Positions 1-14,864 of a stretch of DNA of 14,864 nucleotides are shown piece by piece (within the stretch, counting starts at the first letter, position 1; each line of letters opens with the position of its first letter). This stretch comes from Promethearchaeota archaeon. Its GTDB lineage: Archaea > Asgardarchaeota > Lokiarchaeia > Sigynarchaeales > SOKP01. The notes beneath the pieces were generated by a model. The model saw only the letters and a program-made list of their open reading frames with translations. It ran no database searches and had not been told where the DNA came from. The stretch is taken from positions 1 through 14,864 of the forward strand of contig JAUXAJ010000105.1 of the NCBI GenBank assembly GCA_030620005.1, given 5' to 3'. Position numbers and translations under genes: made by a program.

Positions 1-11
1 ATAGAATAGTA

Positions 12-43
12 ATTAGTACTAAAATTTATTAGTACTAAAATTT
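12..43. repeat. Tandem 16-bp repeat with palindromic core
   Basis: Two exact head-to-tail copies of ATTAGTACTAAAATTT lie at 12-27 and 28-43. Each contains the perfect 10-bp palindrome TTAGTACTAA (13-22 and 29-38). The arrangement, two palindromes one and a half helical turns apart about 80-110 bp upstream of the symporter start, resembles a double operator for a dimeric regulator. It could also be an upstream gene's tail region, since the window begins here. That it is an operator is inference. Confidence 0.5.
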
Positions 44-122
44 AATAAAAAAACTAAACTAAATTCTAATCTAACATCTTTAAAAAAATAAAAAATAATT
101 AAAAAAACAGGTTATATATAAA

Positions 123-1520
123 ATGAGTCTTGAAAAAGGAACAGAAGAGAAGAATAGGTCTATGTCCACTCTCATTTCATACAGCGTAATGAATATTGGA
201 AGCGGAACGGCTTTTAGCTTTATCATGGCATATGGGCTCTATTTTTACGAGGTTGAAATTGGCTTACCCATCTTATTATATACCCTCGCGTTTGTTATAT
301 TTTCGATCTGGGATGCAGTCAACGATCCCATCGTTGGTCATATATCGGATAAACCCCACTTTTACACGAGACGGTGGGGTAGGCGTTTTCCATGGATAAT
401 TATTGGAACCATACCTATTACTTTGTTATTTTTGCTCGTATTTTCGCCACCCGATGTAGATCCTGTCGAGAACGCGATTGTCTTATTCCTTTGGCTTACA
501 TTATTTCTTTGTGCTTATGAATGGTTTTATACTGCTGCTTCGGTAAATTATTCGGCATTATATCCTCAAAAATTCCGTACCGATAGAGATCGCAGGTATG
601 TAACTGGATTTAACCTAGGTGGATGGGCGTTCATGCAATTCTTCGGGATAGTAGTCCCGCCGCTAATAATCGTGTTTGGAGATAAAACAAGTTTCTTTAC
701 GGCAGCATTACTTATCGTGCTAATTACCCTCCCATTTATAGTATTAGGAATTCCAGGTGTTCGTGAAGATAAACAAATGATCGAGGACTTTCTAAGAAGC
801 GAAGAACAAGCCAAAGAAAAGGGAAGTTTTATCCATGTAATGAAAGTCCTCTTTAAAAATCGAAATTTCCTCGCAATGCTCGTCGTTTGGATGTGTCTAA
901 ACACTTATAATTATTTAGCTATTGGATCAGTAATTTATCACACTCGATTCGTTCTACAAATAGAAGCATATTGGGGAAGCCTTGTCCTGTTAGGTTATTT
1001 AATAACAGGTCTCATTACGATTCCTATCTGGATCTGGATAATTGGGAAAATTGGGGAAATAAAAACTCTTTACATTGGTACGATAGGAATGGCGCTTTCC
1101 ATGTTCCCCATCTTGCTTTTTAATAATGTAATTGCGGCCTTTGTCGCCTCTTCAATAACGGGAGTTGTCGTTTGTGCCTTGCAATGTGCCGATGAGCCAT
1201 TATTTGCGTCAGTTATCGACCAAACAGTATTACAGGAACATCGACGCTCGGAAGGAGCGTACAATGGAGTTTTACAGCTCGTTTTACGCGCTTCGGCGCC
1301 AATCACTACTGTTATCTTCGCAGTTACCCACATTGTCACTGGTTTCGATCCGAATGCTGATGTTCAAACACCTCTAGCCCAGTGGGGAATAATAGCTGAT
1401 TTTTCTTTGATTCCCATGATTCTTGCTGTAATTGGAATTCTTGTCTTTTGGAAATTATGGGATCTCACGGAAGAAAATAGGAAAGAGCTCAGAGCCCAGT
1501 TGAAGGAACTCGAGCTTTAA
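123..1520 (+). CDS. GPH-family (MFS_2) sugar/uronide:cation symporter
   Basis: A 465-residue polytopic membrane protein with about twelve hydrophobic segments, the normal size for the glycoside-pentoside-hexuronide:cation symporter family (MelB/GusB-like, MFS_2). The diagnostic loop 2-3 signature is intact: WDAVNDPIVGHISDK at residues 63-77, then RRWGRR at 83-88. The family imports sugars, glycosides and hexuronides with H+ or Na+. The substrate cannot be read from the sequence; a sugar or sugar acid would suit the catabolic enzymes further downstream. The N-terminus is short and cytoplasmic and the C-terminus is a charged helix. ATG 123 is preceded only by a weak AGG (109-111), with a TATATA stretch directly before the start. 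Monocistronic in appearance, followed by a T13 tract. A 60-base sample (301-360) is about 47% G+C, richer than most of the window. Confidence 0.9.
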   Translation: MSLEKGTEEKNRSMSTLISYSVMNIGSGTAFSFIMAYGLYFYEVEIGLPILLYTLAFVIFSIWDAVNDPIVGHISDKPHFYTRRWGRRFPWIIIGTIPITLLFLLVFSPPDVDPVENAIVLFLWLTLFLCAYEWFYTAASVNYSALYPQKFRTDRDRRYVTGFNLGGWAFMQFFGIVVPPLIIVFGDKTSFFTAALLIVLITLPFIVLGIPGVREDKQMIEDFLRSEEQAKEKGSFIHVMKVLFKNRNFLAMLVVWMCLNTYNYLAIGSVIYHTRFVLQIEAYWGSLVLLGYLITGLITIPIWIWIIGKIGEIKTLYIGTIGMALSMFPILLFNNVIAAFVASSITGVVVCALQCADEPLFASVIDQTVLQEHRRSEGAYNGVLQLVLRASAPITTVIFAVTHIVTGFDPNADVQTPLAQWGIIADFSLIPMILAVIGILVFWKLWDLTEENRKELRAQLKELEL

Positions 1521-1541
1521 ATATTATTTCTAATTTTCAGA

Positions 1542-1554
1542 TTTTTTTTTTTTT
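1542..1554 (+). terminator. Oligo-T terminator after the symporter gene
   Basis: A run of 13 T residues begins 22 bases after the symporter stop codon. Archaeal RNA polymerase commonly terminates at such U-tracts without a hairpin, and none is evident here. Confidence 0.6.
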
Positions 1555-1612
1555 AAATTATAAAATTAACATAATCGTATTTGGTATTAAACATACAAAA
1601 ATGTGATGTAAA

Positions 1613-2992
1613 ATAGCTAAAATTATTGTCATAAACGGAAGCCCTCACGGAAAGGGTGGGACTACTTTCTTTTTTTTTCAATATGCTCAGAAACAGTTTC
1701 CTGAAGCTGAATGTAAAATTTTTCACGTTGGTGCACGCATTAAAAAAATTGAAGAAGACCAAGATTACTTCAATTCAATAATTGATGAGGTAAGAACTGC
1801 CGATGCAGTTTTCTGGATTTATCCAACTTGGATTTTCTTACTCCCCTGTCAATTCAAGCTGTTTATTGAATTAATCTGGGAAAGAGGTGCTGAATCGGCC
1901 TTCAAAGGTAAATACGCTACTTCAATCGTCACATCAATTCATTTTTGCGACGATTTACCGTTAAATTACATGCACGGCATTTCTGAAGACCTTGGGATGT
2001 TTTATTACACGGGATTTTCGGCTGATATGGAAGACATGAATAAAATAGAAGAACGCAAAAGATTGAGCTTATACGCCCAAAATTTTCTTCGAATCGTGGA
2101 AAACAAAATTCCCTTACCTCGAGTTACAGCGCCAATCGTTTATCAGCCGTGTTCTTACGAGTCAGGAAACATTGAGGACGTAAAAAAGACAAACGACTAT
2201 AAAATGCTTCTGATTACTGACGCTGAAAAGGAAGATAAAAATCTAATCAATATGATTGAATCCTTTACTCGACTCGTCCCAAATCCGGTTGAAATAGTTA
2301 ATTTGAACGACATAAACATCGTTCAAGGATGCTTGGGATGTGGAAACTGTCAATTTAACGTGGGACAATGTGTTTCTGCTAAACGAGACGATTACGAAGA
2401 AATGTATAGGCAAAAAATCATTGACAAGGATGTGTTAATTCTCGCTCCGAAAATCAGAGACCGCTATTTCTCTGCAAAATGGAAAAGAATGGAAGATAGG
2501 CGGTTCGTCGACAATCATCGCCCCCTTTGGACGGGAAAGCAAGTTGTATATCTAATTTCGGGTCCTTTAAGAGCACTCCCAAACTTGCGCCAACTTTTAC
2601 ATATAAGAAAACAGGTTAATGAAGCCGAAATTGCTGGAATTGTCACCGATGAGTACGAAACTCCAGGAGAAATCACGGAGTTAATTAAAGCGAGCATAAA
2701 GCAGCTTTTCTGGTCTTTAGAAAAAAAGTTCATTTTCCCCAACACATATGTTGGAATTGGAGCTTTGAAAATATTTCGGGACTTCATCTGGAATTACCAA
2801 TTTGTTTTCCCAGGTGATCACGCGCATTACAAGGAACACGGTTTTTACGATTTTCCTAAAAAAAGTCGGCTTAAATTCTGGTTTATAGGCCGAATCATGA
2901 AAAAGGAAAAATCTCGGAATAAGTGGGGAAAAAAATTCGCTAAAAAAGCCGAGGCGCAGCGAAAGGCAATCATGGAAGAAAAGTTGATCTAA
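1613..2992 (+). CDS. Tandem flavodoxin-fold FMN/Fe-S protein, start codon anomalous
   Basis: The coding frame clearly begins near 1610, not at the first in-frame ATG (1970). Translating upstream of 1970 gives a typical NADPH-dependent FMN reductase/flavodoxin-2 N-terminus, AKIIVINGSPHGKGGTT, where NGSPHGKGG is the FMN-phosphate loop, followed by an uninterrupted domain. No ATG, GTG or TTG exists in frame between the TGA at 1604 and 1970. Either ATA 1613 (reading M-A-K-I-I-V) is used, or one T has been inserted after ATG 1606. From 1613 the protein has 459 residues. Domain 1 (about 1-170) is flavodoxin-like. Domain 2 (from about 198) starts a second alpha/beta unit with C240-X2-C243-X2-C246-X6-C253, like the cluster motif of iron-sulfur flavoproteins. 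The C-terminus is strongly basic. Probable role: cytosolic electron transfer or quinone/flavin reduction; partner unknown. It could be a decaying gene if the start really is lost, but the rest of the frame is open. Confidence 0.75.
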   Translation: MAKIIVINGSPHGKGGTTFFFFQYAQKQFPEAECKIFHVGARIKKIEEDQDYFNSIIDEVRTADAVFWIYPTWIFLLPCQFKLFIELIWERGAESAFKGKYATSIVTSIHFCDDLPLNYMHGISEDLGMFYYTGFSADMEDMNKIEERKRLSLYAQNFLRIVENKIPLPRVTAPIVYQPCSYESGNIEDVKKTNDYKMLLITDAEKEDKNLINMIESFTRLVPNPVEIVNLNDINIVQGCLGCGNCQFNVGQCVSAKRDDYEEMYRQKIIDKDVLILAPKIRDRYFSAKWKRMEDRRFVDNHRPLWTGKQVVYLISGPLRALPNLRQLLHIRKQVNEAEIAGIVTDEYETPGEITELIKASIKQLFWSLEKKFIFPNTYVGIGALKIFRDFIWNYQFVFPGDHAHYKEHGFYDFPKKSRLKFWFIGRIMKKEKSRNKWGKKFAKKAEAQRKAIMEEKLI

Positions 2993-3184
2993 GCCCTTAA
3001 AAACAACACCACACCTTCAATTCGGAAATAAGCTCCTTAAAAAAGAACGCGTGCTTGTAAGGCTAGATACGCAATTATTGGGGAAAATAGAATGGTTTAT
3101 AGAAGAATAAGTTATTATTTAATTATACAAAAAAAAGAACATTTAGTCAAATTTTATGAAGGAGCGTAATTTATTGCAATCGTA

Positions 3185-3194
3185 ATAATATAAA
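3185..3194 (+). promoter_or_regulatory. TATA box for a near-leaderless acyl-CoA synthetase mRNA
   Basis: TAATATAAAA is centred about 23-26 bp before ATG 3213, the spacing expected between an archaeal TATA box and the transcription start. There is no Shine-Dalgarno sequence next to the ATG (the nearest GGAG is about 49 bases away), so a leaderless transcript is likely. The surroundings are very AT-rich, so the match alone is weak. Confidence 0.4.
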
Positions 3195-3212
3195 ATATCT
3201 TATAGTACAATT

Positions 3213-4826
3213 ATGAATGAAAAGAAAATGGATTTACCAAAATTAGAATTTTTCTGGCAATATGTCGAACATTGGGCTGCTATTGACCCAGATTTTCCAA
3301 CAATCAAATATAAAGACAAAATTACCACGGCTGGAGAACTTTACGATGAAGTCAAGCAGGTAGCAAAGGCTTTTCTAAGTCTTGGTGTGAAAAAGGGGGA
3401 TAGAATTGTCACGGTGCTCCCCAGTAGCCTTGAATTCATATTAACATTTTTAGCATCCAATATGATAGGTGGTATCGTTACTCCCATGGACATACGGTAT
3501 AGACCTGCTGATTACGAACGCTTTTTGTCCCACGTTGAGCCAAAAATAGTTGTCTTGATAGGAAAAGCTAGAGGATACGATGTCGCTCAAGCAGTACAAG
3601 ATGTATGCGTAAAAGCGTGCCCCGACGCAAAAATTATTGTAGTTGGAGGAGGTGCATTAGGGGAGTCTTTTGATGAAATGTTGGCCAAAAAATACGAGTT
3701 AGATGACGAATTAGAAAAAGCAAAAACATCATTGAGCCAAGATGATGGCACATTGATTGTTTTTACTGGCGGAACGACAGGAATGCCAAAAGCGGCGCTA
3801 TTATCCCAGAGAAATTTATTATACTCAATCTATTACGAAACGCAGGCGTTAGTAAAGAACATTGAATCTCTTGGAATTTCTCAAAGAACAAAAATAATAT
3901 CAAATTTACCAACGAGCCATGTAGGAGGCGTAGAAGAGACTATCGGGTGCGCGCTTTGTGCGGGGATGCAACTAATAGTCCAAGAAGCATGGTCTCCTTA
4001 CCCACTTTTGGAAGCGATTCAAGAGGAAAAAATTCATTTTACAGGCGGAGTTCCCACAATGATGGCAATCCTTCTAAGCTTACCAGATCTTGATAAATAT
4101 GACCTCTCCTCCATAAAACTTGTAATGGTTAGCGGAGAGAAATTAAGTTTGGAACTCCTCCAAGGAATTAAAGAAAAGTTCACTGAAAATATCATCAATG
4201 GATATGGTAGCACGGAATCAGGTACAGAAACTACCTTTTCATCCATAGGAGATCCGCTTGAAAAACTAGCAGCGGGTTATGCGGGTCATCCTCTCCCAGA
4301 ACAAGAAATTAAAATTGTTGATGACGATGGAAATGAGTTGCCTCCGGGAAAAGAAGGAGAAATCTTAGTAAAGGGCCCAATGACCATAACAGGTTATTTT
4401 AAAATGCCTGAAGAAGACAAAGTCGGGTTTACTCCGGATGGATGGTGTAAAATGGGTGACTTAGGCCATCTTGACGAAGATGGTGGGCTGTGGATTAAAG
4501 GTCGTAAAAAATTTATTATTAGAGTGGGCGGTTACACGGTTCTACCCACAGAAATCGAAGAGGTCGTGCTTAAAGATCCAAATGTTGCCATGGCTGCTGC
4601 AATAGGGATACCACATAAGATTTACGGGGAAATAATTTGGCTTTATGTGATTCCAGAGGCTGGTAAAAAGCCAGATGAAAATGCACTTATTGAATTATGC
4701 AAAGAGCAACTTGCAGATTTTAAAGTTCCTAAAAGGATATTCTTCAAGGATTCACTTCCACTTACTCGTCTTGAAAAAATAGATCGAGTAACTCTGCGAA
4801 AACAAGTATTATCAGAAATGAAATAA
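3213..4826 (+). CDS. ANL-superfamily acyl-CoA synthetase (AMP-forming)
   Basis: A 537-residue adenylate-forming enzyme, full length for the family. It would activate a carboxylic acid with ATP to an acyl-AMP and then to acyl-CoA in the cytosol. Visible core motifs: ATP/phosphate loop TGGTTGMPK (185-193), NGYGSTE (329-335), adenine/ribose-binding GDL (415-417), hinge GRKKFIIRVGGYTVLPTEIE (430-449), and the C-terminal catalytic lysine K522 within LEKIDR. The hinge motif normally reads GRxKD; here Phe replaces the Asp, a modest departure. The acid substrate cannot be assigned; overall shape suggests medium/long-chain fatty or aromatic acids rather than acetate. ATG 3213 is the only sensible start and fits the upstream TATA box. 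It stands alone between the flavoprotein and a convergent peptidase gene. Confidence 0.88.
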   Translation: MNEKKMDLPKLEFFWQYVEHWAAIDPDFPTIKYKDKITTAGELYDEVKQVAKAFLSLGVKKGDRIVTVLPSSLEFILTFLASNMIGGIVTPMDIRYRPADYERFLSHVEPKIVVLIGKARGYDVAQAVQDVCVKACPDAKIIVVGGGALGESFDEMLAKKYELDDELEKAKTSLSQDDGTLIVFTGGTTGMPKAALLSQRNLLYSIYYETQALVKNIESLGISQRTKIISNLPTSHVGGVEETIGCALCAGMQLIVQEAWSPYPLLEAIQEEKIHFTGGVPTMMAILLSLPDLDKYDLSSIKLVMVSGEKLSLELLQGIKEKFTENIINGYGSTESGTETTFSSIGDPLEKLAAGYAGHPLPEQEIKIVDDDGNELPPGKEGEILVKGPMTITGYFKMPEEDKVGFTPDGWCKMGDLGHLDEDGGLWIKGRKKFIIRVGGYTVLPTEIEEVVLKDPNVAMAAAIGIPHKIYGEIIWLYVIPEAGKKPDENALIELCKEQLADFKVPKRIFFKDSLPLTRLEKIDRVTLRKQVLSEMK

Positions 4827-4858
4827 GCAATAATTCATATACCAAATTTCATGCATAA

Positions 4859-4866
4859 TTTTTTTT
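4859..4866 (+). terminator. Oligo-T terminator after the acyl-CoA synthetase gene
   Basis: T8 tract 32 bases after the stop codon, on the coding strand. No stable hairpin precedes it, as is usual in archaea. Confidence 0.5.
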
Positions 4867-5021
4867 AAAATTAAATATTTCATTTTCCACGAGAACAATG
4901 GCTATCTCTTTCAGCAGCGATATATAAAGAATCTGCTGTAAGAACGATGGAATGTGGAGCAGTTTCAAAAGGTAGGGAATTTAGTAGTTCCATTAAATAG
5001 TTTTTAAGGTTATACATTTGA

Positions 5022-5043
5022 TTTTCTTAAGAAAAAAAAAAAA
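5022..5043 (-). terminator. Terminator of the S9 peptidase gene (U12 tract plus palindrome)
   Basis: Read on the minus strand, the peptidase stop codon is followed one base later by twelve consecutive T residues (plus-strand A12, 5032-5043). These overlap the perfect 14-bp palindrome TTTTCTTAAGAAAA (5022-5035). The gene converges with the acyl-CoA synthetase gene, so the 218-bp gap holds terminators for both strands. Confidence 0.6.
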
Positions 5044-5044
5044 T

Positions 5045-7357
5045 TTAGAACATGAACATTTTCATGACAAATTCCATCGGAGGTCCTTTTATCTTATATT
5101 CCTTTGGAGGAGTAAGATGTAAGAGGTGTTGAACAAAATAATCCATTCGCTTTCGAATGAAATATCCATCCATGGCAAATAAATGATTGCGATTTGGGAG
5201 CACTATCATGTCAAAATCCTTATTAGCTTTTATGAGGGCATCAATTAATTGATATGTCAGGGCAGGATGCACGTTGTCATCTAAATCGCCACACGCTAGT
5301 AATAATTTTCCCTTTAAATTCTTTGCCAATTTTGCATTGATTTGATTGTCATAATTATTACCTTTTAGCATTCCTTGATATTTATTTCCCCAATCAGCTA
5401 CATATCCTCGCTGATCATGATTTCCCGCAGAAGATACGGCTACATTATAAAAGTCTGGAAATGCTAAAATTGCTCTTGTAGAAGCAAAACCACCTCCAGA
5501 ATGACCAAATATCCCAACACTATCTAAATCCATGTAAGGATAGTCCTTTTTTAATTGTTTAAATGCGGCTACATGATCTTCTAAGCCTCCTCCATCTCCC
5601 AAGTTTCCGTAAGAAAAATCATGAAATTTTTTAGATCTCAAGGGAGTTCCTATTCCATCAACGGTTACTACTATAAATCCTAATTCTGCCATTGCTTGCG
5701 GACCCCAGAAATTATTTAAGCTTCGATCGATTTTCTGTGGAAATTGTTTGGGTGTTTTGATCACTTGAGGTCCTGGATAGATAGCATCAATGACGGGATA
5801 TTTTTTACTTGAATTAAATGAGCTTGGATAAAACATGACCCCGTAAATGTCAGTAGTCCCATCTCGAGCTTTTAACTTGAATTGCGTGGGGAGATTCCAC
5901 CCTAACTCACGAAGTAAACTTAAATCAGCAATTTCAAGATTTAATATTAATTGTCCATCTACACTTCGTACAACCGAAGTTGGAGCAGTATTCACACTTG
6001 AAAAATTGTCAACAAAGTAGTTTCCCGTTGGTGAAAATTCAACGTCGTGATCGGCATCTTCTGGAGTTAACAACTCTATCCTTGTTCCGTCAAGACTGGC
6101 GCGATATAAGTGCCTGAAGTAAGGATCTCGGTTTTTTTCCTTTCCACCAGCTAAAAAATAAATCCAACGATCTTTTTCATCTACATGCATGATATCTCGC
6201 ACTAACCATTCTCCTGAAGTAATTTGATTTTTTAAGTCCCCTGTATTTCCATCGTATAGATATAAATGGCCCCATCCATCTCTTTGAGAAAACCATATTA
6301 CTTCTTTAGAAGTCTCTAATACTTTAACATTTGGGGGAGATCCAATCAAATGATTCAGATCAATTTGAGTTCCAATTTTTTCTTCAATGATTACCCGCGT
6401 ATCTCCCGTTTCTGCATTGACTTCTATAAATCTTCCAGTTTTAAAATTTCGTTCAATATATATATAATAAATGTATTTACTATCTTTACTCCACCAAACG
6501 TACTTAAAAAAAATGGGTGGAACATATGAGATATCTTGAGGCTTGTATTTTGCTACAACCTTAGATTTTTTCTCAATATCTAGTACGACTAATTCTGATT
6601 GAGTAATTACTTCATCCTCAGGTAAAGGATAACGATAGGAATGCAAAATAGGTCGCGAGCTCTTACCCAATCCAACGGATTGAATGAGATGCATTTGTTT
6701 TACTTTTCTTTGATCCATTTTATGAACGACCAATTTTTTCGAATCGGGAGACCATAACGCTATGGGGGGAAGTTTTAATCCCATTCTCCGAATTGTTATT
6801 TCAAAAGTACTGGACTCAGGTAAAGTACCATATTCATTCCATTTCTCACCATCATCTGTGAGTTGAAATTCTTCACCTGTTGACAATGACCTAATAAAAA
6901 TGTTATGATTCTTTACAAGGGCGGTCCAATTATTATCTGGTGATTTGAGTTCACCTTGCGGATCGAATTCTTTCTTTGTTTTATCCTTGCACTTATAGGT
7001 TTCTAAATCAAAGATATACCTACTTTTTTTAATATCAAATTGAATGTCATTTTCTTCTTCGATGAATTTAATCTCATCAAATGGAAAGTTTTTGTGATCA
7101 CGAGTCCTACTCGATGTTTCGGATAAGCTTTTGGCAAGTTTCACGTGATCAAATGCGTCTTCTTTTATTTTCTTTTCGGGATCCACCAGAAAAAATCTTT
7201 TCTCTTGTTGAGTCTTGCTTACGTACCAAAATTTATCGGTTTTTTCAATCCAATTAGGTTGAATATGAGTATTAAAAGTAAGTTTATACGCATTCCACGG
7301 AAGAAATTCTTCAGCTCGCTCATATACTTCTTCGGGCATTATTTCCTTTGAATTCAT
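5045..7357 (-). CDS. Prolyl oligopeptidase-family (S9) dipeptidyl peptidase, DPP-IV-like
   Basis: A 770-residue protein with the two-part DPP-IV layout: an N-terminal beta-propeller (about 100-500, with repeated WSPDSKKL- and FSPTGNY-type blades) and a C-terminal alpha/beta hydrolase. The catalytic triad is readable: Ser620 in GHSGGG, Asp693 in GDLDDNVHP and His725 in NRNH. It should remove dipeptides or cleave short peptides, often after Pro or Ala. The nucleophile elbow is GHSGGG rather than the GWSYGG of classical DPP-IV, so exact specificity is uncertain. There is no signal peptide or N-terminal membrane anchor, so it is probably cytosolic, unlike most bacterial and animal DPP-IVs. ATG 7357 is supported by GGTGA seven bases upstream (minus strand of 7365-7369). 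Nothing nearby links it functionally to the sugar-acid genes. Confidence 0.9.
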   Translation of the reverse strand: MNSKEIMPEEVYERAEEFLPWNAYKLTFNTHIQPNWIEKTDKFWYVSKTQQEKRFFLVDPEKKIKEDAFDHVKLAKSLSETSSRTRDHKNFPFDEIKFIEEENDIQFDIKKSRYIFDLETYKCKDKTKKEFDPQGELKSPDNNWTALVKNHNIFIRSLSTGEEFQLTDDGEKWNEYGTLPESSTFEITIRRMGLKLPPIALWSPDSKKLVVHKMDQRKVKQMHLIQSVGLGKSSRPILHSYRYPLPEDEVITQSELVVLDIEKKSKVVAKYKPQDISYVPPIFFKYVWWSKDSKYIYYIYIERNFKTGRFIEVNAETGDTRVIIEEKIGTQIDLNHLIGSPPNVKVLETSKEVIWFSQRDGWGHLYLYDGNTGDLKNQITSGEWLVRDIMHVDEKDRWIYFLAGGKEKNRDPYFRHLYRASLDGTRIELLTPEDADHDVEFSPTGNYFVDNFSSVNTAPTSVVRSVDGQLILNLEIADLSLLRELGWNLPTQFKLKARDGTTDIYGVMFYPSSFNSSKKYPVIDAIYPGPQVIKTPKQFPQKIDRSLNNFWGPQAMAELGFIVVTVDGIGTPLRSKKFHDFSYGNLGDGGGLEDHVAAFKQLKKDYPYMDLDSVGIFGHSGGGFASTRAILAFPDFYNVAVSSAGNHDQRGYVADWGNKYQGMLKGNNYDNQINAKLAKNLKGKLLLACGDLDDNVHPALTYQLIDALIKANKDFDMIVLPNRNHLFAMDGYFIRKRMDYFVQHLLHLTPPKEYKIKGPPMEFVMKMFMF

Positions 7358-7712
7358 GTTGGTTTCACCATTATAATCAAATTATAAATTAATTTTCATT
7401 TCTCATTTTATTTAAAAATTTATATTGACTATTACTTAAAAAACTTTTATATTCATTCCATTTCGGAAAAATATATGAGTCGTTCAACTATTAAGAAAAT
7501 AATTCCAATTGCCATTATCAATATAAAGAGACCCAAATTCTCATGTCGGAGAAAAATTCAAATTAAAATGAAGAAAAAGGAAAATTGATCACTCAAAATG
7601 GATTCATTTATCAGATAATTCAATGGAAGTACCGTTGCAAAAAATCTGGAATTTAAATGTAAATTTCTTTTGTATGACATAAATGTTTCTCATCAAGTAG
7701 AGTTAAATATTC
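7358..7712. other. Intergenic region of 355 bp, no confident gene
   Basis: This region carries the upstream region of the S9 peptidase gene (very AT-rich, several TATA-like blocks such as the minus-strand AATTTATAAT at 7381-7390) and the downstream region of the aldolase-Fae gene. It holds no strong terminator for the latter, only a minus-strand T6 (7637-7642). The one notable item is a short hydrophobic open frame on the minus strand (7453-7536), listed separately at low confidence. Confidence 0.6.
7453..7536 (-). CDS. Possible 27-residue single-helix membrane peptide (doubtful)
   Basis: From TTG 7536 the minus strand encodes 27 residues dominated by one hydrophobic stretch (GLFILIMAIGIIFLIVERLI) ending in an acidic tail. 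Composition is what a single-span membrane microprotein would show. Against it: a TTG start, only a weak GAGA upstream, no homology judged, and AT-rich DNA readily gives Phe/Ile/Leu strings by chance. It could also be a gene fragment. Confidence 0.15.
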   Translation of the reverse strand: MGLFILIMAIGIIFLIVERLIYFSEME

Positions 7713-9200
7713 TTAAGGATCATTTCTTAAGGGATGGCGAGCATTTTCAGCATTTTTTATTCCATCAGCTGCCGTAGGCACGCCTTCAATTGCTTTTCTT
7801 ATTGCATTTCTCGTTGCTTTATAATTGTTTATGAATATTCTTTTTCGACTGCTTGCGCTTGGGTGGACAAAAACATTTGCAATGATGACAATATCTTCTG
7901 CTACATCCTTAGGAAGAATTCCATCCTCAACACATTGCATTACTGCTTTTGCTATTGCTGCTTGAGCAGGACCATATACCAAATTAGCATGACGAAGTGA
8001 AGTCACTTTTACCGTAGGGATCATGATTGTAGCGGGTTTTACTTGCATGTTTGGCTCTAGAATTACTTGAAGGCCTTCTCGTCCTTTTGCAGGATGAGTT
8101 AAAGCGCGAGCATACGCTTCACCAACGGGACCATCTTTTTTGCCTATGAGAAGGTCTATATGTGCTAACTCAACACGTTCACCAACCAAGGATTCTCCTA
8201 CTTTTAAATTGAAATCTGAGATTTTTTGAGGTGTCATTCCAACTGCATAAAAACGACTTGTAAGTTCCTTTTCTCCAATCTTGAATTCTATTTCCTTCTT
8301 TTCAATAAATCCTAATTTTTCTAATTCAATTCTGAATTCATCTCTAAGTTCGTAAGAAAGAGCATCCCCTAAAATTATGGGTTGTCGAGTTATCCCCACT
8401 GGAATTCCCATCATGTTTAAACACTCTTTCGCCCCCAAAGCTCCAGAATTAATTAACATTCTAGCAATCTTTTGAACTTTCTTTTGAAGAGTTTGTGCTT
8501 CTGGTAAACGATTATTTTTTATGTGGTCATATATTTCTAGCCAAATTTTTGGAATGATATTCGCAGAACCTAAAATGCAACCTGCAGCTCCACCTGCTAA
8601 AGCGCCCAACACATTTTCATCCCATCCAATAAGAACAGATATTTTATCACTTACTTTTTCTAACAATGCTGAAAAATACTTGTAATCGCCACTTGAATCT
8701 TTAATTCCTACAATGTTGTCAATATCGGCAAGATCTTCAACAACCGTCCATGGCAATTCTATACCCGTACATACGGGTATGTTATAAAGAACTATGGGAA
8801 TATCTGTTTTTTCTGCGATTGTAAAATAATGATCATATAGCCCTTTGGCTTTTGGTTTAAGATAATATGGAGTTACTATCAAAACAGCATCCGCGCCTAT
8901 ATCAGTTGCTGCTCTTGTAGCATCAATTGCTAATCTAGTACCACTTTCTCCTGTTCCGGCAATCACGGGTACTCTCCCATTAGTCTCATCAACAACGATT
9001 TCAATCACTTTACATCGTTCCTCAAAAGTCATGTTCACGAATTCTCCTGTTGTTCCTATTGGGACAAGCCCCGTGACACCTTGCTCAATAAGATGATTCA
9101 CTAAAGTTCTTAATTGTTCCTCATTAATCGATTCATCCTTATTAAATGGAGTAACCATTGCGGGCATTACTCCTTTAGGCCTAAAATCAAATTTACTCAT
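7713..9200 (-). CDS. DHDPS/NAL-family aldolase fused to formaldehyde-activating enzyme (Fae)
   Basis: A 495-residue two-domain enzyme. Residues 1-298 are a complete class I aldolase of the DapA/NanA superfamily: substrate-carboxylate loop GTTGE (49-53), TPYY (110-113), YNIP with Tyr139, and Schiff-base Lys167 in GIKDSSGD. The Arg that binds aspartate semialdehyde in true DHDPS (YNVPSRTG) is Cys144 here (YNIPVCTG), arguing against lysine biosynthesis. Residues about 332-495 are a full-length Fae domain: VGESLVG, AHIDL with the catalytic His347, QVKPATIMIP, YGPAQAAIAKAV, FVHPSA and NNYKATRNAI. Fae joins formaldehyde to tetrahydromethanopterin, forming methylene-H4MPT. A linker of about 30 residues separates the domains. 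The fusion implies that the aldolase releases (or uses) formaldehyde, for example 4-hydroxy-2-oxobutanoate giving pyruvate plus formaldehyde; that substrate is inference. ATG 9200 has GAAGGAAG ten bases upstream. Divergent from the LarA-like gene. Confidence 0.93.
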   Translation of the reverse strand: MSKFDFRPKGVMPAMVTPFNKDESINEEQLRTLVNHLIEQGVTGLVPIGTTGEFVNMTFEERCKVIEIVVDETNGRVPVIAGTGESGTRLAIDATRAATDIGADAVLIVTPYYLKPKAKGLYDHYFTIAEKTDIPIVLYNIPVCTGIELPWTVVEDLADIDNIVGIKDSSGDYKYFSALLEKVSDKISVLIGWDENVLGALAGGAAGCILGSANIIPKIWLEIYDHIKNNRLPEAQTLQKKVQKIARMLINSGALGAKECLNMMGIPVGITRQPIILGDALSYELRDEFRIELEKLGFIEKKEIEFKIGEKELTSRFYAVGMTPQKISDFNLKVGESLVGERVELAHIDLLIGKKDGPVGEAYARALTHPAKGREGLQVILEPNMQVKPATIMIPTVKVTSLRHANLVYGPAQAAIAKAVMQCVEDGILPKDVAEDIVIIANVFVHPSASSRKRIFINNYKATRNAIRKAIEGVPTAADGIKNAENARHPLRNDP

Positions 9201-9263
9201 TTATTTTTTACTTCCTTCAATAATTCTCGATAATTTTTAATTTACCTTCTTTTTTTTAATCAT

Positions 9264-9278
9264 TGATTATATTTAAAT
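9264..9278 (-). promoter_or_regulatory. TATA-like promoter element of the aldolase-Fae gene
   Basis: On the minus strand the block TTTAAATATAATC lies about 65-75 bp upstream of ATG 9200. Transcription starting about 26 bp downstream would give a leader of roughly 45 bases that includes the GAAGGAAG ribosome-binding site. AT richness makes the call tentative. Confidence 0.3.
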
Positions 9279-9494
9279 CTTCATCGCCTTCTGTAAATAT
9301 TTTCTTTCACTTTCTAAATCAAGAGCTTATATGATGTTTTGTGTATCATTTGAGGAGTGAATTTCACTTTGTTTAAGATATCTTTTGATATTGATGAGTT
9401 TTCCCAAATAATGAAAATATTAAAAAAAAAATGTTGGATAAAATTGTTTTTAGACTCCTTAGAGGAAATTTAAAACTTTTTAAGTATTACAGTA

Positions 9495-9502
9495 ATTTAT
9501 AA
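9495..9502 (+). promoter_or_regulatory. TATA box of the larA-like gene
   Basis: ATTTATAA is centred about 30 bp before ATG 9529. A start site 26 bp downstream would leave only a few untranslated bases, consistent with the lack of a good Shine-Dalgarno sequence at this start. Confidence 0.4.
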
Positions 9503-9528
9503 TTAAAATTTTAAAAGAAGTAATAAGA

Positions 9529-10770
9529 ATGGTTAAGAAATTTAAGATTCCATGGGCATCATGGTATAGTCCAAATGAAATAACGCTTGAATTTCCTGAT
9601 TCGTGGGATGTTGATTTTTATGGTGTAAAAGATTTTCCAGAAATTACGGATGAAAAAGAGATTATTAAGCTTTTAAACAATCCACATGGAACTGCAAATC
9701 TTTCTGAACTTGCGATAGGAAAAAAGAATGCAGTTATTGTCGTTGAGGATATTACAAGACACGCCAGACCACATAAAATAGTGCGTGTCGTTCTAAATCA
9801 GCTGAACGAAGCGGGAATTAGTGATGAAAACATTACATTAATTGCAGCACTTGGCAGTCATCGTCCCATGGTTCGAGAAGATTTTATTAAAAAGATTGGA
9901 CTTGATGTTCTTGAGCGAATCAATGTTGAAAACCATCATCCTTATTTGAATTTAGTTTACGTGGGAGACTCAAAATTGGGCACACCAATACATGTAAACA
10001 AAACATATTTCGAAGCAGAGCTTAAAATTACGATTGGTAGTGTAGTTCCACATTTAGTTGCTGGATTTGGGGGAGGAGCAAAAATCATTTTGCCGGGAAT
10101 TTGTGGATTGGAAACATTAAAAGCAAACCATTCTGCAAGCTTGGATGTAATTGGGGTAGGATTGGGACATATTACGGATTTAAGAAGAGATATTGAAGAT
10201 GTATGCTCCCGCGTGGGGTTGGATTTCAGCATAAATATTATCTCCACTGTTTCTGGAGGCACAGCAGGAATTTTTGCGGGCCATTATATAGACGCTCATA
10301 GAAAAGCAATAGAGTTGTTTAGAAAGATATATACAACGGAAATTCCTTCTAAAAAAAAATATGATGTTGGCTTTTTCAATACATATCCAGAAGATACTGA
10401 ATTATTACAAAGTTCTAAAGCCCTTAACATGTTCCTTCTCAATTCTCAAATGATCGCTTCTAGAGGAACAATCGTCATTTTAACCGCATCTACAGAAGGA
10501 AGGGGTTTTCATTCCTTAGAGGGTCAAACGGGAGCAGCACATTATATTAATTTTGGAGACCAAGCGATTTGGACATTTCTTGGAAAAAGAAGGACATGTC
10601 TGTACTCACCCAATGTTACGAAAGCAGATGTGTATCACTTCTATCCGAAATCCATGATATTTGAGAAAAATTTCAAGATTCTAGTGGAAAAATTAGAAAA
10701 ATTGATTGGAAAAAAAAATCCATCAGCATTCATATATCCAACCAGCATTCAACTTTTAAAAAAAAAATAA
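9529..10770 (+). CDS. larA: LarA-family nickel-pincer 2-hydroxyacid racemase/epimerase
   Basis: A 413-residue member of the lactate racemase family. Active-site residues known from Lactobacillus LarA are all in place at nearly the same numbers: Asp74/Arg77 in EDITRHA, His111 in GSHRPM, His175 in VPHLVAGFGGG, Lys185 in GGAKIILPG (the lysine that carries the nickel-pincer nucleotide) and His201 in KANHSAS. The enzyme moves a hydride at C2 of a 2-hydroxy acid, inverting configuration. Family members include lactate and malate racemases and gluconate-type 2-epimerases, so here an aldonate 2-epimerase feeding the neighbouring dehydratase is plausible. The gene symbol denotes the family, not proven lactate specificity. 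The cofactor-making genes larB, larC and larE are not in the window. It is divergent from the aldolase-Fae gene and convergent (21 bp apart) with the gene of unknown function. Confidence 0.9.
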   Translation: MVKKFKIPWASWYSPNEITLEFPDSWDVDFYGVKDFPEITDEKEIIKLLNNPHGTANLSELAIGKKNAVIVVEDITRHARPHKIVRVVLNQLNEAGISDENITLIAALGSHRPMVREDFIKKIGLDVLERINVENHHPYLNLVYVGDSKLGTPIHVNKTYFEAELKITIGSVVPHLVAGFGGGAKIILPGICGLETLKANHSASLDVIGVGLGHITDLRRDIEDVCSRVGLDFSINIISTVSGGTAGIFAGHYIDAHRKAIELFRKIYTTEIPSKKKYDVGFFNTYPEDTELLQSSKALNMFLLNSQMIASRGTIVILTASTEGRGFHSLEGQTGAAHYINFGDQAIWTFLGKRRTCLYSPNVTKADVYHFYPKSMIFEKNFKILVEKLEKLIGKKNPSAFIYPTSIQLLKKK

Positions 10771-10789
10771 AAAGACTTATTGCTTTTTT
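10758..10789. terminator. Bidirectional terminator between larA-like gene and unknown gene
   Basis: On the plus strand T6 (10784-10789) follows the larA-like stop codon by 13 bases. On the minus strand T5-A-T10 (plus-strand 10773 down to 10758) follows the stop of the convergent gene and overlaps the last codons of larA. The 21-bp gap therefore serves both strands. Confidence 0.55.
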
Positions 10790-10791
10790 CT

Positions 10792-12078
10792 TCATTCTGA
10801 ATGAAGATTTTTTGCAGCAATAAAAGTTTGTCCATTTTCTGTTAATTTTTGAGCTGTTAAATTAAGGGAATCCAGACGATCTAAATTACTAATACGCATG
10901 TCCTCCCAGATACCTTCTTCTTTAATCTGCTGTTTTTCTTTGGAATAATCATTGCTATCAGAAGGATAGGTTCGTGTTTTCTCAATATCAGGCTCTCCTC
11001 CTTCATGTTTTGCGCTTATCATTTTGATTTCCTTACTAAGTCGAACGATTTGATCACGACGCAAATAAGGCTGCCTCACAATCCCATAATATGTTTCTGT
11101 AAGATGATGTTCTAATAAAATCAAGTCCTCGAATTCTAAGTTCTTTCGTATTTCTGCTGATAGTTTAAATGTTTCATCATTGATTGTATTTGCAAAATTA
11201 AATCCAAATAGTGGGGTGGTACCATCTTCTCGACTAAATAAATTAGCCGTCATGAGAGTCCATAATACAGAAAAGGGATTATCATTACCCATATATACTG
11301 AAATTTTAAATTGAATATCGATGCCTAATTTGTAAAGAAGATAACCTAATATTACTGTTCCAGGATTTATGTTAAGAACTTGTCGAACACCATGCGTCGT
11401 ATAATAATAAAGAAATTCATCAATCCATTTTAATGCAAAATCATTTGGTTGCCCAATTCCCCCAAAATACCCAGAATTACTCTTTATGGGGTCTCCTAAA
11501 TGAATGTTAACACTAAGATCATCTGGTCCTTTAAAAAGACCATTTGTATCGAGAGTTTCTGTATAACTACAACCGATGATATCATAAGCCGCTTGAAAAG
11601 CGATTAGGTCTCCATCAGTTTCTTGCTCTTTCATATTTCGTACTTTAATGAATCGTCCAGGCATTAACATTTGTTTATCAAGAGCTTGTCTCACCGCATC
11701 CATGAGGAATTCCCAATATTGAACGGCAGAGAATTCAAGGACAACAGCATAATTCTCATCGAAGGTCATGTTTTCATACCTATCTCCTAATACGCTTTTT
11801 CTATATTCTGGAATACTAATAAATGCTTGCTCATCCCTTTTTTTCATGAGCCATGCGAGCTCCTGCACGTGATTAGGATTAATTTTTTCCAACTTTTGTA
11901 TCATTGTGTTCAAATCACGAGCTTCTTTAGCCTTCTTGTTGATCTCTTTAGGACCACCATGTTTATCAACAATTTCTAATAAAGCATTGATAAGGGAATT
12001 ATTCTCATTTAAAAGATATCTATTTATCGTTTCAATAGATTTATTTGATATTTTCAACAAATCTCGCAAATTTCCCAT
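10792..12078 (-). CDS. Unrecognised conserved-looking protein, soluble alpha/beta
   Basis: I do not recognise the family. From ATG 12078 it has 428 residues; an in-frame TTG at 12090 would add four. Neither start has a clear ribosome-binding site. There is no signal peptide and no membrane segment. The first about 110 residues are helical and charged; from about 120 to 350 alternating strands and helices suggest an alpha/beta (possibly TIM-barrel-like) enzyme domain. Striking segments are the HLGDPI, GGIGQPNDFALKW, NINPGTVILGYLLYKLGID, SVYMGNDNPFS and LLEHHLTETYYG stretches. The paired His with adjacent acids in EHHLTE could bind a metal. The last about 60 residues are charged and low in complexity. 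Its position between a hydroxyacid epimerase and an IlvD-type dehydratase suggests a role in the same hydroxyacid metabolism, but the gene faces the other way and this is inference only. Confidence 0.75.
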   Translation of the reverse strand: MGNLRDLLKISNKSIETINRYLLNENNSLINALLEIVDKHGGPKEINKKAKEARDLNTMIQKLEKINPNHVQELAWLMKKRDEQAFISIPEYRKSVLGDRYENMTFDENYAVVLEFSAVQYWEFLMDAVRQALDKQMLMPGRFIKVRNMKEQETDGDLIAFQAAYDIIGCSYTETLDTNGLFKGPDDLSVNIHLGDPIKSNSGYFGGIGQPNDFALKWIDEFLYYYTTHGVRQVLNINPGTVILGYLLYKLGIDIQFKISVYMGNDNPFSVLWTLMTANLFSREDGTTPLFGFNFANTINDETFKLSAEIRKNLEFEDLILLEHHLTETYYGIVRQPYLRRDQIVRLSKEIKMISAKHEGGEPDIEKTRTYPSDSNDYSKEKQQIKEEGIWEDMRISNLDRLDSLNLTAQKLTENGQTFIAAKNLHSE

Positions 12079-12216
12079 ATTAACTATCAACTATAACTTC
12101 TGTTTTTAATTTTAATACATAAATTTATGATTATTGAAAGCTAATATTACTAATAAAACTAACTGAAAAATAATTTTAAGTTCAAAGAGAATGAGTTCAT
12201 TAATAATCTCATGAGC

Positions 12217-12304
12217 TTTTTCAAATAGAATCTCAAATTTTAAAACTTTTATATGATACTTATACATAAAAAATATAATACGAAATTATTTTCTATTTGA
12301 AAAA
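12217..12304. repeat. 14-bp inverted repeat bracketing the dehydratase promoter
   Basis: TTTTTCAAATAGAA (12217-12230) and its exact reverse complement TTCTATTTGAAAAA (12291-12304) are 60 bp apart and end six bases before the GTG start. The putative TATA box lies between them. Such an arrangement could be a pair of operator half-sites or a looping site. Low sequence complexity means chance is not excluded. Confidence 0.4.
12271..12280 (+). promoter_or_regulatory. TATA box of the dehydratase gene
   Basis: AAATATAATA is centred about 35 bp before GTG 12311. Transcription about 26 bp downstream would leave a leader of around nine bases, and no Shine-Dalgarno sequence is present, so initiation on a very short leader is likely. 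Confidence 0.35.
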
Positions 12305-12310
12305 CGAGTA

Positions 12311-13960
12311 GTGATTAAAATTAACTCAGATCGAATTAAAAAAGGATTGGAAACAGTTTCACATCGTGCACTTCTTCGAATAATAGGCTTGAAGGATGAG
12401 GATTTTGGTGAAAAACCGTGGATTGGTGTTGCAAATTCATATACGAACCTCATCCCAGGGCATCTTACTTTAAATGATGCAACGGAACGCATTATGCAAG
12501 GAATTATAGATGCTGGAGGAGTCGCTTTCGAATGGGGTGTGCCAGGTATTTGCGATGGAATTGCAATGGGTAAAGGAAATGGAATGAATTATTCTTTACC
12601 CTCTCGCAATAACATTGCGGATAATATTGAATTAATGATGAGCGGACATAGCTTAGATGCCTGGGTAGGTGTTACAAATTGCGATAAAATCACGCCTGGA
12701 ATGTTAATGGCAACAGGAAGGCTCAATCTACCAGCAATTATTTTTACTGGAGGACCCATGAAACCTGCATATATTGACGGAAAAAAAGTTGATATAAGGG
12801 ACGCTTATGAAGCCGTTGGTTCTTTTAAGGCAGGAACAATGTCCGAAGAAGAAGTCCTTAAAATAGAAAAATATTGCTGTCCAGGACCAGGTGCATGTGC
12901 GGGATTATACACGGCTAATTCAATGGCATGCATGACGGAAATTCTTGGTCTTTCTTTAACTGGCTGTGCAGCAATGCACGCAGAAGATCCTAAAAAGTTA
13001 GAACTTGCTTATGAAACCGGTAAACAAATCGTAAAATTAGCCAAGGAAGATATCAAGCCCCGCGACATTATCATGGAAAAATCCTTCAAAAATACCATAA
13101 TGGTGGATTTGTGCATTGGAGGATCCACTAACACGACTTTACATATACCAGAGATTGCAAAAGAATATGAACTTGATGTAGGTTTATTCATGTTTGATGA
13201 ACTTGCTAAAGAAACCCCAAATTTAGTTAAAATTAACCCTTCGAGTGATTACATGATGGACGATTTCGATCGAGCAGGAGGTATTCCTGCCGTTATGAAA
13301 AGATTAAAAAATATGCTGGAGTTAGATGTGCAAACTGTTAATTTGAAGACAATAGGGGAAATCGCAAATGAAGCGGTAGTAAAGGATGATGATATGATAC
13401 GACCAATTGAAAATGCCTATTCAAAAACGGGAGCACTTGCTATTATAAAAGGTAATCTTTGTCCCAAAGGAGCTGTTATAAAAGTCGCTGCCGTTGATAA
13501 AAAAATGTTACAGCATGAAGGTCCAGCACGCGTATTCAACTCTGAATATGATGCAATGGACGCAATATTGAACAAGAAGATTAAACCTGGAGATGTCGTC
13601 GTGATCAGATTCATGGGGAAAAAAGGTGCTCCTGGAATGCCTGAAATGTTAAATCCTACAAGTGCAATTGCAGGAATGGGTTTGGCTGACTCGGTTGCGC
13701 TAATAACGGATGGGAGGTTTTCTGGCGTAACCCGTGGACCTTGTATTGGTCATATTGATCCCGAAGGATGGGACGGAGGACCAATCATAGCCATCGAAGA
13801 AGGCGATACCATTAAAATTGATTTATTAAGTAGAACATTAGATCTAGATCTCCCAGATGAAACAATTAAAAGAAGGATAAAAGATTTTAAAGCACCTCCT
13901 CGAAAGTTAAAAGGAATTCTTCGAAATTATGTCAATAACCTTAGCAACATGGGTCAATAA
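12311..13960 (+). CDS. IlvD/Edd-family dehydratase (dihydroxy-acid or sugar-acid)
   Basis: A 549-residue Fe-S dehydratase that removes water from a 2,3-dihydroxy acid to give a 2-oxo-3-deoxy acid. Collinear with bacterial IlvD. Seen: metal ligand Asp82 in CDGIAMG, cluster ligand Cys124 with Asp125 and the carbamylatable Lys126 in NCDKITPGMLM, cluster ligand Cys196 in CPGPGACAG, and the catalytic-base Ser in TDGRFSG near residue 470. Where plant-type [2Fe-2S] enzymes have a Cys (TPCN), this one has IPGH (residues 48-51), as in E. coli IlvD, pointing to an oxygen-labile [4Fe-4S] cluster; extra Cys81 and Cys189 are unusual. GTG 12311 gives an N-terminus matching the family. No ilvB, ilvC or leu genes are adjacent; instead an epimerase and an aldolase are, so a catabolic sugar-acid role (aldonate, threonate or erythronate) is at least as likely as branched-chain amino-acid synthesis. 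Confidence 0.88.
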   Translation: MIKINSDRIKKGLETVSHRALLRIIGLKDEDFGEKPWIGVANSYTNLIPGHLTLNDATERIMQGIIDAGGVAFEWGVPGICDGIAMGKGNGMNYSLPSRNNIADNIELMMSGHSLDAWVGVTNCDKITPGMLMATGRLNLPAIIFTGGPMKPAYIDGKKVDIRDAYEAVGSFKAGTMSEEEVLKIEKYCCPGPGACAGLYTANSMACMTEILGLSLTGCAAMHAEDPKKLELAYETGKQIVKLAKEDIKPRDIIMEKSFKNTIMVDLCIGGSTNTTLHIPEIAKEYELDVGLFMFDELAKETPNLVKINPSSDYMMDDFDRAGGIPAVMKRLKNMLELDVQTVNLKTIGEIANEAVVKDDDMIRPIENAYSKTGALAIIKGNLCPKGAVIKVAAVDKKMLQHEGPARVFNSEYDAMDAILNKKIKPGDVVVIRFMGKKGAPGMPEMLNPTSAIAGMGLADSVALITDGRFSGVTRGPCIGHIDPEGWDGGPIIAIEEGDTIKIDLLSRTLDLDLPDETIKRRIKDFKAPPRKLKGILRNYVNNLSNMGQ

Positions 13961-13976
13961 CCAAAAATAAATCTAA

Positions 13977-13990
13977 TTTTCAATTTTTTT
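13977..13990 (+). terminator. Oligo-T terminator after the dehydratase gene
   Basis: T4 followed by T7 (13984-13990) begins 17 bases after the stop codon on the coding strand. No hairpin is needed for archaeal termination. Confidence 0.5.
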
Positions 13991-14072
13991 CAATAAATTA
14001 ATGATTTAAATAAAAAGTAATTTGTTAGACCTAAAAGAAAGAATTTTTATAACATTAAAATCACTTTAAAAC

Positions 14073-14080
14073 TTATAAAT
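14073..14080 (+). promoter_or_regulatory. TATA box upstream of the leader ORF and sialidase-like gene
   Basis: TTATAAAT is centred about 34 bp upstream of the leader ATG at 14111. A second candidate, TTTTTATAAC, lies at 14044-14053; using that one would place the GAGG at 14099-14102 inside the transcript as a ribosome-binding site for the leader ORF. Confidence 0.4.
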
Positions 14081-14110
14081 AAATTCGATGTTATTCATGA
14101 GGTTAGGTTA

Positions 14111-14206
14111 ATGAAAAAATTAGTAAAAAAGATAATTGTTGAAAGAGAAAGAAGAACACCAGCCACATTGAGAGGTATTAATAACGAGGAGGTGTTCACA
14201 TGGTAA
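14111..14206 (+). CDS. Possible 31-residue leader peptide, overlaps downstream start
   Basis: ATG 14111 opens a 31-codon frame ending at TAA 14204-14206. It is preceded by GAGG at 14099-14102 (8-base spacing). The peptide is very basic at first (MKKLVKKIIVERERRTP) and has no recognisable domain. Its stop overlaps the next gene's start in the arrangement ATGGTAA, so ribosomes finishing the leader would be positioned at the downstream ATG. This suggests translational coupling or a regulatory leader. It may also be a chance open frame in a 5' untranslated region. Confidence 0.35.
   Translation: MKKLVKKIIVERERRTPATLRGINNEEVFTW
14154..14197 (+). promoter_or_regulatory. Potential stem sequestering the ribosome-binding site
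   Basis: GAACACC (14154-14160) is exactly complementary to GGTGTTC (14191-14197). The second arm covers the end of the strong Shine-Dalgarno sequence GAGGAGGTG (14186-14194) of the next gene. In the transcript this stem would mask the site unless a ribosome translating the leader opened it. The stem is only 7 bp with a 30-base loop, so its stability is uncertain. Confidence 0.35.
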
Positions 14207-14864
14207 GTATTAAAGATGTCGAGCATATATTCATATACAAGGATCCAGATTTAGCTCACGCCTGCAATCAAGTCAGCATTGTCTTGCTACAGAACGGCGA
14301 GCTCTTCTTGGGATTCAATGAGGAGAGATATCCCGTCCATGCTGACAGCGGACAATCGTGTTTCATCAAATCGATTGACGGGGGAAAAACCTGGGATCAG
14401 TCTACCAAGCAAGTCATCTGGCCCTACACAGAATCCAAGGGCAATTGGGATTGTGCGTTTGTCCAGATTACTGACAAAACCATCTTGATGCACAGTCGGG
14501 TTTGTAATTTCATTACACCCAGGGGAATCAATTACGATGGCGATCAAATTCTTGGAATGCCTCCTCCGGGGATGCCCGAACGCCTCAAAAGGCAGACGGG
14601 ATATGTGGTGCTCAAATCTAAGGACAACGGCATTACCTGGACCGATCCCATAGAGGTTAACACGAGTCCCATCGCCAGCTCGTCGTTGGCACCTTATGCT
14701 TGTGGAGGATCAGGAGCTGGACATATCATCGAGCTTCCCGATGGAAAGCTGTTAATGCCTCTAGACGGGACAATATCGCAGGTAGCGGAACCAGGAATGG
14801 GAAGCGAGACATCACGAAATTTCTTGTTGAGATCGGATGATGGTGGTAACAACTGGGAGTACTG
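14200..14864 (+). CDS. BNR/Asp-box sialidase-like beta-propeller protein, 3' end cut by window
   Basis: The first 221 codons of a beta-propeller protein of the sialidase (neuraminidase) superfamily. Three Asp-box motifs (S-x-D-x-G-x-T-W) are visible: SIDGGKTW at 58-65, SKDNGITW at 140-147 and the diverged SDDGGNNW at 212-219, spaced as successive blades. The superfamily includes exo-alpha-sialidases and other glycan-binding or hydrolysing propellers; the catalytic Arg triad, Asp and Tyr cannot be judged on this partial sequence. There is no signal peptide, so a cytosolic protein or a non-classical role is possible. ATG 14200 has an ideal ribosome-binding site, GAGGAGGTG, five bases upstream, and an in-frame stop at 14182 rules out a longer start. 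A 60-base sample (14281-14340) is 50% G+C against 30% in a dehydratase sample (13141-13200), hinting at transfer or high expression. Confidence 0.85.
   Translation, partial: MVSIKDVEHIFIYKDPDLAHACNQVSIVLLQNGELFLGFNEERYPVHADSGQSCFIKSIDGGKTWDQSTKQVIWPYTESKGNWDCAFVQITDKTILMHSRVCNFITPRGINYDGDQILGMPPPGMPERLKRQTGYVVLKSKDNGITWTDPIEVNTSPIASSSLAPYACGGSGAGHIIELPDGKLLMPLDGTISQVAEPGMGSETSRNFLLRSDDGGNNWEY

Follow-up and report, generated by a model that had tools for sequence, protein, structure and literature searches.

A DHDPS-family class I aldolase and a Fae domain are joined in a single archaeal protein, which keeps the catalytic residues of both enzymes, has lost the arginine of DapA and is linked to a partner gene of its own, here called c1. 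By analogy to Fae-Hps, we propose in an evenly balanced judgement that this fusion is an H4MPT-dependent exchanger with two sites, which would transfer a hydroxymethyl group to and from pyruvate. Its recurrence across Lokiarchaeia and Bathyarchaeia, usually beside c1, points to a so far undescribed means of transferring one-carbon units onto or off pyruvate. In the titles and abstract openings of the partial literature lists that we screened, no description of a DHDPS-Fae fusion was found.

The gene is located in a stretch of 14,864 nucleotides from a Promethearchaeota archaeon (GCA_030620005.1, contig JAUXAJ010000105.1, positions 1-14,864 of the forward strand), which as a whole is called the window in the following. 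It occupies positions 7713-9200 of the minus strand as one ORF of 495 aa and encodes, all on this strand, the aldolase domain (residues 8-276, 8373-9179, with the Lys167 codon at 8700-8702), an interdomain linker (residues 277-333, 8202-8372, delimited by the Pfam borders and the structure model) and the Fae domain (residues 334-491, 7728-8201, with the His347 codon at 8160-8162). A preliminary description of this DNA had called both domains complete, and we could confirm this for each of them: DHDPS (263 bits, E 2.6e-78) and Fae (192 bits, E 7.7e-57) are the only Pfam domains of the window protein, with no OMPdecase/HUMPS (Hps) domain, and the motifs named there were all located, namely Lys167, Tyr139 and GTTGE (49-53) in the aldolase and His347 in AHIDL, YGPAQ (409-413) and NNYKATRNAI in Fae. 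The NCBIfam cut-offs are passed for both TIGR00674 dapA (240.3 bits vs 206.15) and TIGR03126 fae (194.3 bits vs 118.05). The AlphaFold2 model of the fusion (mean pLDDT 83.4, pTM 0.76) shows a well predicted aldolase barrel and a weak linker, with residues 310-315 and 319-330 below a pLDDT of 50. The best Foldseek matches of the aldolase half are DapA structures (TM 0.95 to the target, rmsd 1.5 A), and the Fae half aligns without gaps to Fae from M. extorquens (PDB 1y5y, E 1.2e-31), whose conserved His22 corresponds to His347.

In a homologue search 7997 candidates were scored and 3185 were found at E <= 0.001; all of the 120 listed among these carry both Pfam domains. Databases name these homologues DapA. 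From a scan of contigs 80 of 91 confirmed loci were kept, those with the fusion belonging to Lokiarchaeota and Bathyarchaeota as well as one Undinarchaeales and one Chloroflexota locus, and together with the window they form a set of 81 loci. In 74 of them the fusion is encoded by one uninterrupted ORF of 465 aa or more. The seven exceptions are four contig ends (L037, L065, L076, L077), one fusion that is broken in frame (L078) and two matches to the aldolase part only (L079 and L080). As the single ORF recurs in these 74 loci, mainly from Lokiarchaeota and Bathyarchaeota, the fusion is real and not an assembly artefact. At the level of genomes, a full-length fusion was found in 12 of 300 sampled from the phylum of G001 (G001 included) and, at E <= 1e-90, in three of 400 Chloroflexota (the phylum of G020, G020 included), each of the latter having it as a tandem pair.

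In the proposed reaction the N-terminal aldolase would bind pyruvate as a Schiff base through Lys167 and would join formaldehyde to it or split it off, 4-hydroxy-2-oxobutanoate being the four-carbon partner. The C-terminal Fae domain would interconvert formaldehyde and methylene-H4MPT. The net reaction would be pyruvate + methylene-H4MPT + H2O <-> 4-hydroxy-2-oxobutanoate + H4MPT, with the toxic formaldehyde staying local between the two sites. We infer that the aldehyde is formaldehyde and the keto acid pyruvate, and likewise the direction of the reaction. The overall exchange step is expected to be reversible and therefore both catabolic formaldehyde capture and synthetic hydroxymethylation would be possible. 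The preliminary description had seen mainly the trapping direction and did not include c1, the tandem pairs or the link to homoserine dehydrogenase (HSD). Its idea of a formaldehyde-exchanging aldolase with an attached trap remains the best reading, as both sets of catalytic residues are kept and the separate Fae is Fae-Hps in the four fusion genomes scanned for this. At its Arg position the aldolase departs from DapA.

Fae-HPS fusions are known and are read as formaldehyde capture (PMC5241800), and in an Asgard genome paper they are described as common in archaea (PMC11291895). Like the protein described here they have Fae covalently joined to a formaldehyde-exchanging aldolase, and both types of fusion occur in the same genomes (four scanned). 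Unlike it, the OMPdecase-fold Hps is C-terminal to Fae, whereas the DHDPS-type aldolase is N-terminal, and a tree built from 46 Fae domains separates the new fusion from Fae-Hps with a support of 100/98. One fusion event would be the simplest account of this tree, which was built from the Fae half alone. The inferred transfer of a methylene-pterin carbon to an acceptor is also known from PanB and serine hydroxymethyltransferase. These two enzymes use one active site, whereas the fusion has two domains between which formaldehyde would pass, and no sequence relation to them is claimed. The 4-hydroxy-2-oxobutanoate step proposed here is part of a synthetic homoserine cycle in E. coli, for which PMC8879981 describes the formation of this compound from pyruvate and formaldehyde; unlike the fusion this cycle is engineered and depends on promiscuous RhmA. 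YfaU of E. coli also adds pyruvate to formaldehyde, and PMC8461973 assigns it to the class II pyruvate aldolases. The formaldehyde-accepting pyruvate aldolases of these two papers, RhmA and YfaU, belong to another class than the aldolase of the fusion (PMC8879981, PMC8461973). If the proposal is true, the fusion would be a second enzyme joining the H4MPT one-carbon pool to a C-C bond, in this case at pyruvate, in Lokiarchaeia and Bathyarchaeia, and it would bridge the methyl branch of the Wood-Ljungdahl pathway directly to central carbon without serine hydroxymethyltransferase. Both groups are widespread sediment archaea and Lokiarchaeia are kin of the eukaryotes.

A possible but rather unlikely alternative is that the aldolase acts on a 2-keto-3-deoxy sugar acid or a different 4-hydroxy-2-oxo acid and splits it into pyruvate and a larger aldehyde, with the Fae-like domain either binding this aldehyde or acting as an oligomerisation and cofactor-sensing module. 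The DHDPS superfamily is broad, and the protein also matches the NCBIfam models for N-acetylneuraminate lyase, KDG aldolase and HpaI-not-DapA, all of them below the cut-off. The window would offer fitting neighbours with a GPH transporter, an IlvD-type dihydroxy-acid dehydratase (12311-13960, plus strand; equivalog passed with 691 vs a cut-off of 618 bits) and a homologue of LarA-like nickel-pincer hydroxyacid racemases/epimerases (9529-10770, plus strand; best NCBIfam score LarAH6 with 236 bits, below the cut-off of 500), the last being located between c1 and the fusion but outside the conserved pair. Against this reading, the Fae motifs are strictly kept, with His347 and GPAQ (410-413) present in all 19 aligned single fusions, and none of the sugar-type neighbours is met again in the 45 listed neighbour clusters, in which the window is included only by the fusion itself and by c1. 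As the LarA homologue, IlvD, the transporter and also a ligase and an S9 peptidase encoded in the window do not recur there, a pathway made up of these neighbours was set aside. Further synteny among Lokiarchaeota (UDP-glucose dehydrogenase-like and peroxiredoxin-like genes, identified by eye) looks like lineage-shared gene order. The window also contains an ORF of 340 aa (1970-2992, plus strand) without a Pfam or NCBIfam match but with a cysteine-rich stretch, CLGCGNCQFNVGQC. As a single case, a gene for a homocysteine biosynthesis enzyme (HcyBio, PF01837, 479 bits) with CBS domains is located about 1.7 kb from the fusion in L138 (7848-9344, plus strand) and is followed by a ferredoxin-like ORF.

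The partner gene c1 (10792-12090, minus strand, likely start ATG at 12078) encodes a protein of about 428-432 aa (432 aa for the full window ORF) for which domain scans found no Pfam or NCBIfam family. Its model is a TIM barrel that carries a helical region at the N terminus (pLDDT 87.9). Clustering of ORFs detected c1 in 69 of the 81 loci, making it a neighbour common to several lineages and the window. All 37 Lokiarchaeota loci that extend 2 kb or more upstream have c1: in 34 it was counted directly upstream on the same strand, and in three more (L003, L033, L035) it adjoins the fusion with slightly overlapping ORFs. In the non-Loki loci it was found in 25 of 31, with 16 counted as divergent within 1 kb. 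From all 69 loci having at least 2 kb upstream, only six miss c1 in the fetched stretch. The 300-genome sample contains strong c1 matches in 11 genomes, ten of which are among the 12 with the fusion (Fisher 5e-16, not corrected for kinship); G182 and G223 carry only the fusion, and G221 only c1. A profile search in 22 fusion genomes gave no c1 match in G004, G020 and G022 and partial or split ones only in G003, G006 and G007. In L071, from genome G019 (titled Undinarchaeales), c1 is located directly downstream of the fusion and not upstream. Of 8000 candidates scored for the c1 family, 7996 match. Fold searches with Foldseek and VIA returned only generic TIM barrels with many tied rows. A fold alignment suggested the B12 mutase GlmE (glutamate mutase epsilon), which got no support from sequence profiles, and a phmmer match to MtrH (E 1.5) was not recovered with a profile, so that neither identity was adopted. 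We infer that c1 acts on the same four-carbon compound as the fusion, and if the exchanger reading holds, this anonymous family would gain a testable partner.

A more far-reaching and doubtful idea is that archaea lacking HSD use the fusion in a natural route from one-carbon units to homoserine. The Fae domain would free formaldehyde from methylene-H4MPT, the aldolase would add it to pyruvate, and the product would be aminated to homoserine or rearranged by c1 towards threonine or methionine, which, if true, would be a living counterpart of the engineered homoserine cycle. HSD (PF00742) was found in 14 of 14 control genomes vs three of the 22 fusion genomes (G012, G019, G020). Of the 300 sampled genomes, none of the 12 with the fusion but 231 of the 288 others have it (Fisher 1e-8), which speaks for such a route. 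Kinship was narrowed by comparing only genomes whose Fae frame is long (468-534 aa), which served as a proxy for one class: among the genomes in the matches listed, HSD occurs in 0/8 with the fusion vs 22/24 without it (Fisher 4e-6), a comparison within a proxy class and between genomes of unknown completeness. The association can mean replacement of HSD or a shared lifestyle with lost amino-acid pathways. Homoserine kinase (ThrB, TIGR00191) passes the cut-off in only three of 32 fusion genomes (G019, G022, G223) vs 10 of 18 HSD-positive controls, which argues against the route, and it passes in six of 30 sampled HSD-less genomes without the fusion and in 11 of the 14 named controls. The absence of ThrB is weak evidence, because it is also below the cut-off in some HSD-positive genomes, e.g. 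G253. Threonine-synthase-like proteins (E <= 1e-30, our own threshold) remain in 20 of 29 HSD-less fusion genomes, which fits the route, but HSD-less genomes without the fusion have them just as often (20 of 30), and they therefore do not discriminate. Five such proteins from fusion genomes were scanned, and each exceeds the cut-off of one or more NCBIfam models for threonine synthase (PRK08197 for L142, L151 and L152; TIGR00260 for L142, L143 and L145). In L049 one such protein is encoded about 3.4 kb downstream of the fusion. Thus, the homoserine pathway was not adopted as proof of function, as the absence of HSD fits but the companion counts for ThrB and threonine synthase do not settle it. 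If the exchanger reading holds, the fusion lineages would be well suited to a search for the homoserine step that is missing in them. Unlike most fusion genomes, G019 (3.8 Mb) keeps HSD, the kinase and threonine synthase.

It is quite improbable that the fusion serves formaldehyde protection only, with the retro-aldol reaction being incidental and the Fae domain detoxifying formaldehyde made elsewhere. Such a role would agree with the function of Fae in a dissimilation pathway, where it speeds the capture of formaldehyde by H4MPT (PMC8879981). However, most of these cells already have another Fae. Fae was detected in each of the 22 fusion genomes searched, with two or more matches in 20 of them; those of G020 and G022 are the tandem pair, the second one of G007 is partial and G021 has three. 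In 17 of the 22 a long Fae ORF exists apart from the fusion, and the four of these that were scanned are all Fae-Hps. Therefore, general Fae is in most genomes not supplied by the fusion, and the Fae-Hps precedent sits in the same cells. The close tie to one aldolase and one partner gene also argues against mere protection. In Bathyarchaeota genomes we observed a second Fae protein with an extra N-terminal stretch (L081-L088 and L091), which looks like a helix-turn-helix and is backed only by a sub-cut-off HTH_28 match in L081.

H4MPT, on which the proposed exchange would depend, is likely present in most fusion genomes because MCH of the H4MPT pathway is over the cut-off in 18 of the 22; against the proposal, no MCH match was found in G002, G008 and G020, and in G022 there was only a fragment below the cut-off. 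In a purely synthetic direction the fusion might convert 2-oxoisovalerate and formaldehyde into ketopantoate and thereby replace PanB in pantothenate biosynthesis, which we regard as very improbable. The chemistry would likewise be the hydroxymethylation of a 2-oxo acid, and PanB was missing from 11 of the 22 fusion genomes, a count without a background rate (the control search was positive in 11 of 14 known genomes). As PanB is present in the other 11, this was set aside as the main reading, and a fully substituted donor would be unusual for a DHDPS-type site.

Equally improbable is a genuine lysine-pathway DapA that happens to carry a Fae domain, although the TIGR00674 equivalog cut-off is passed, the database name is DapA and a separate DHDPS match is missing in eight of the 12 fusion genomes of the 300-genome sample (seven of these have the fusion and a Fae-only match alone, and G164 the fusion alone). 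The fusion shares the fold, the Schiff-base Lys and the Tyr and Thr residues with DapA: 29 fusion proteins were chosen for an alignment, comprising 19 single fusions as well as both members of the tandem pairs, and every one of them has Lys167, Tyr139, Thr50 and Thr51. It differs from DapA in the extra Fae domain and in position 144, which is Arg in the DapA structures 2yxg and 3pud, Cys in the window protein and Cys, Val, Thr or Ala, but Arg in none, across the 29. We take this to be the position of Arg138 in E. coli DapA, which binds the carboxylate of the semialdehyde, and the lack of Arg is consistent with an acceptor without a carboxylate. As this Arg marking DapA is a Cys in the window protein, the public name is probably wrong, and since the dapA cut-off is passed (240 vs 206 bits), the DapA reaction is excluded by one position only.

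Tandem fusion pairs were found in Bathyarchaeota (L066, L068) and Chloroflexota (L070, L136, L137), and we scored the losses in their Fae domains against 37 near-invariant columns from 36 reference rows. Paralogue A has lost Ala346, Phe444 and Asn459 in all five pairs and His347 in four, all of which are kept by B. In turn, paralogue B has lost Leu377, Pro383 and Gln413 in all five, which A keeps, Asn384 in all five, which A keeps in four (the exception being L137), and Gly410 and Pro411 in four, again kept by A. Leu338 is lost in every A and every B. As A is also without Ala412 of GPAQ, Pro475 and the C-terminal His489-Pro490 in 5/5, it is the more worn paralogue. The columns lost by both A and B number 1, 2, 1, 3 and 4, compared to 3.65, 3.22, 2.68, 3.41 and 4.05 expected if losses were independent, and are thus clearly below chance in three pairs and close to it in the other two. 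In the Fae tree A and B each form one clade, and the five pairs are therefore not independent. Fae is a pentamer with its active site between subunits, and for this reason the complementary losses are as expected if A and B share one Fae site; the alternative is that both Fae domains of a pair are inactive.

A distant relative of c1 is encoded directly upstream of the Chloroflexota pair in L070; when its family was compared with the c1 profile, 371 columns matched (probability 96.9%, E 1.9e-10). At E <= 1e-20 this type of relative occurs only in that one of the 400 Chloroflexota genomes, and the other two genomes with a tandem pair are therefore without it. Upstream of the pair in L068, where c1 is missing, a protein of 319 aa without a Pfam family is encoded (5721-6677, plus strand), which shows a weak profile similarity to c1 (probability 63%).
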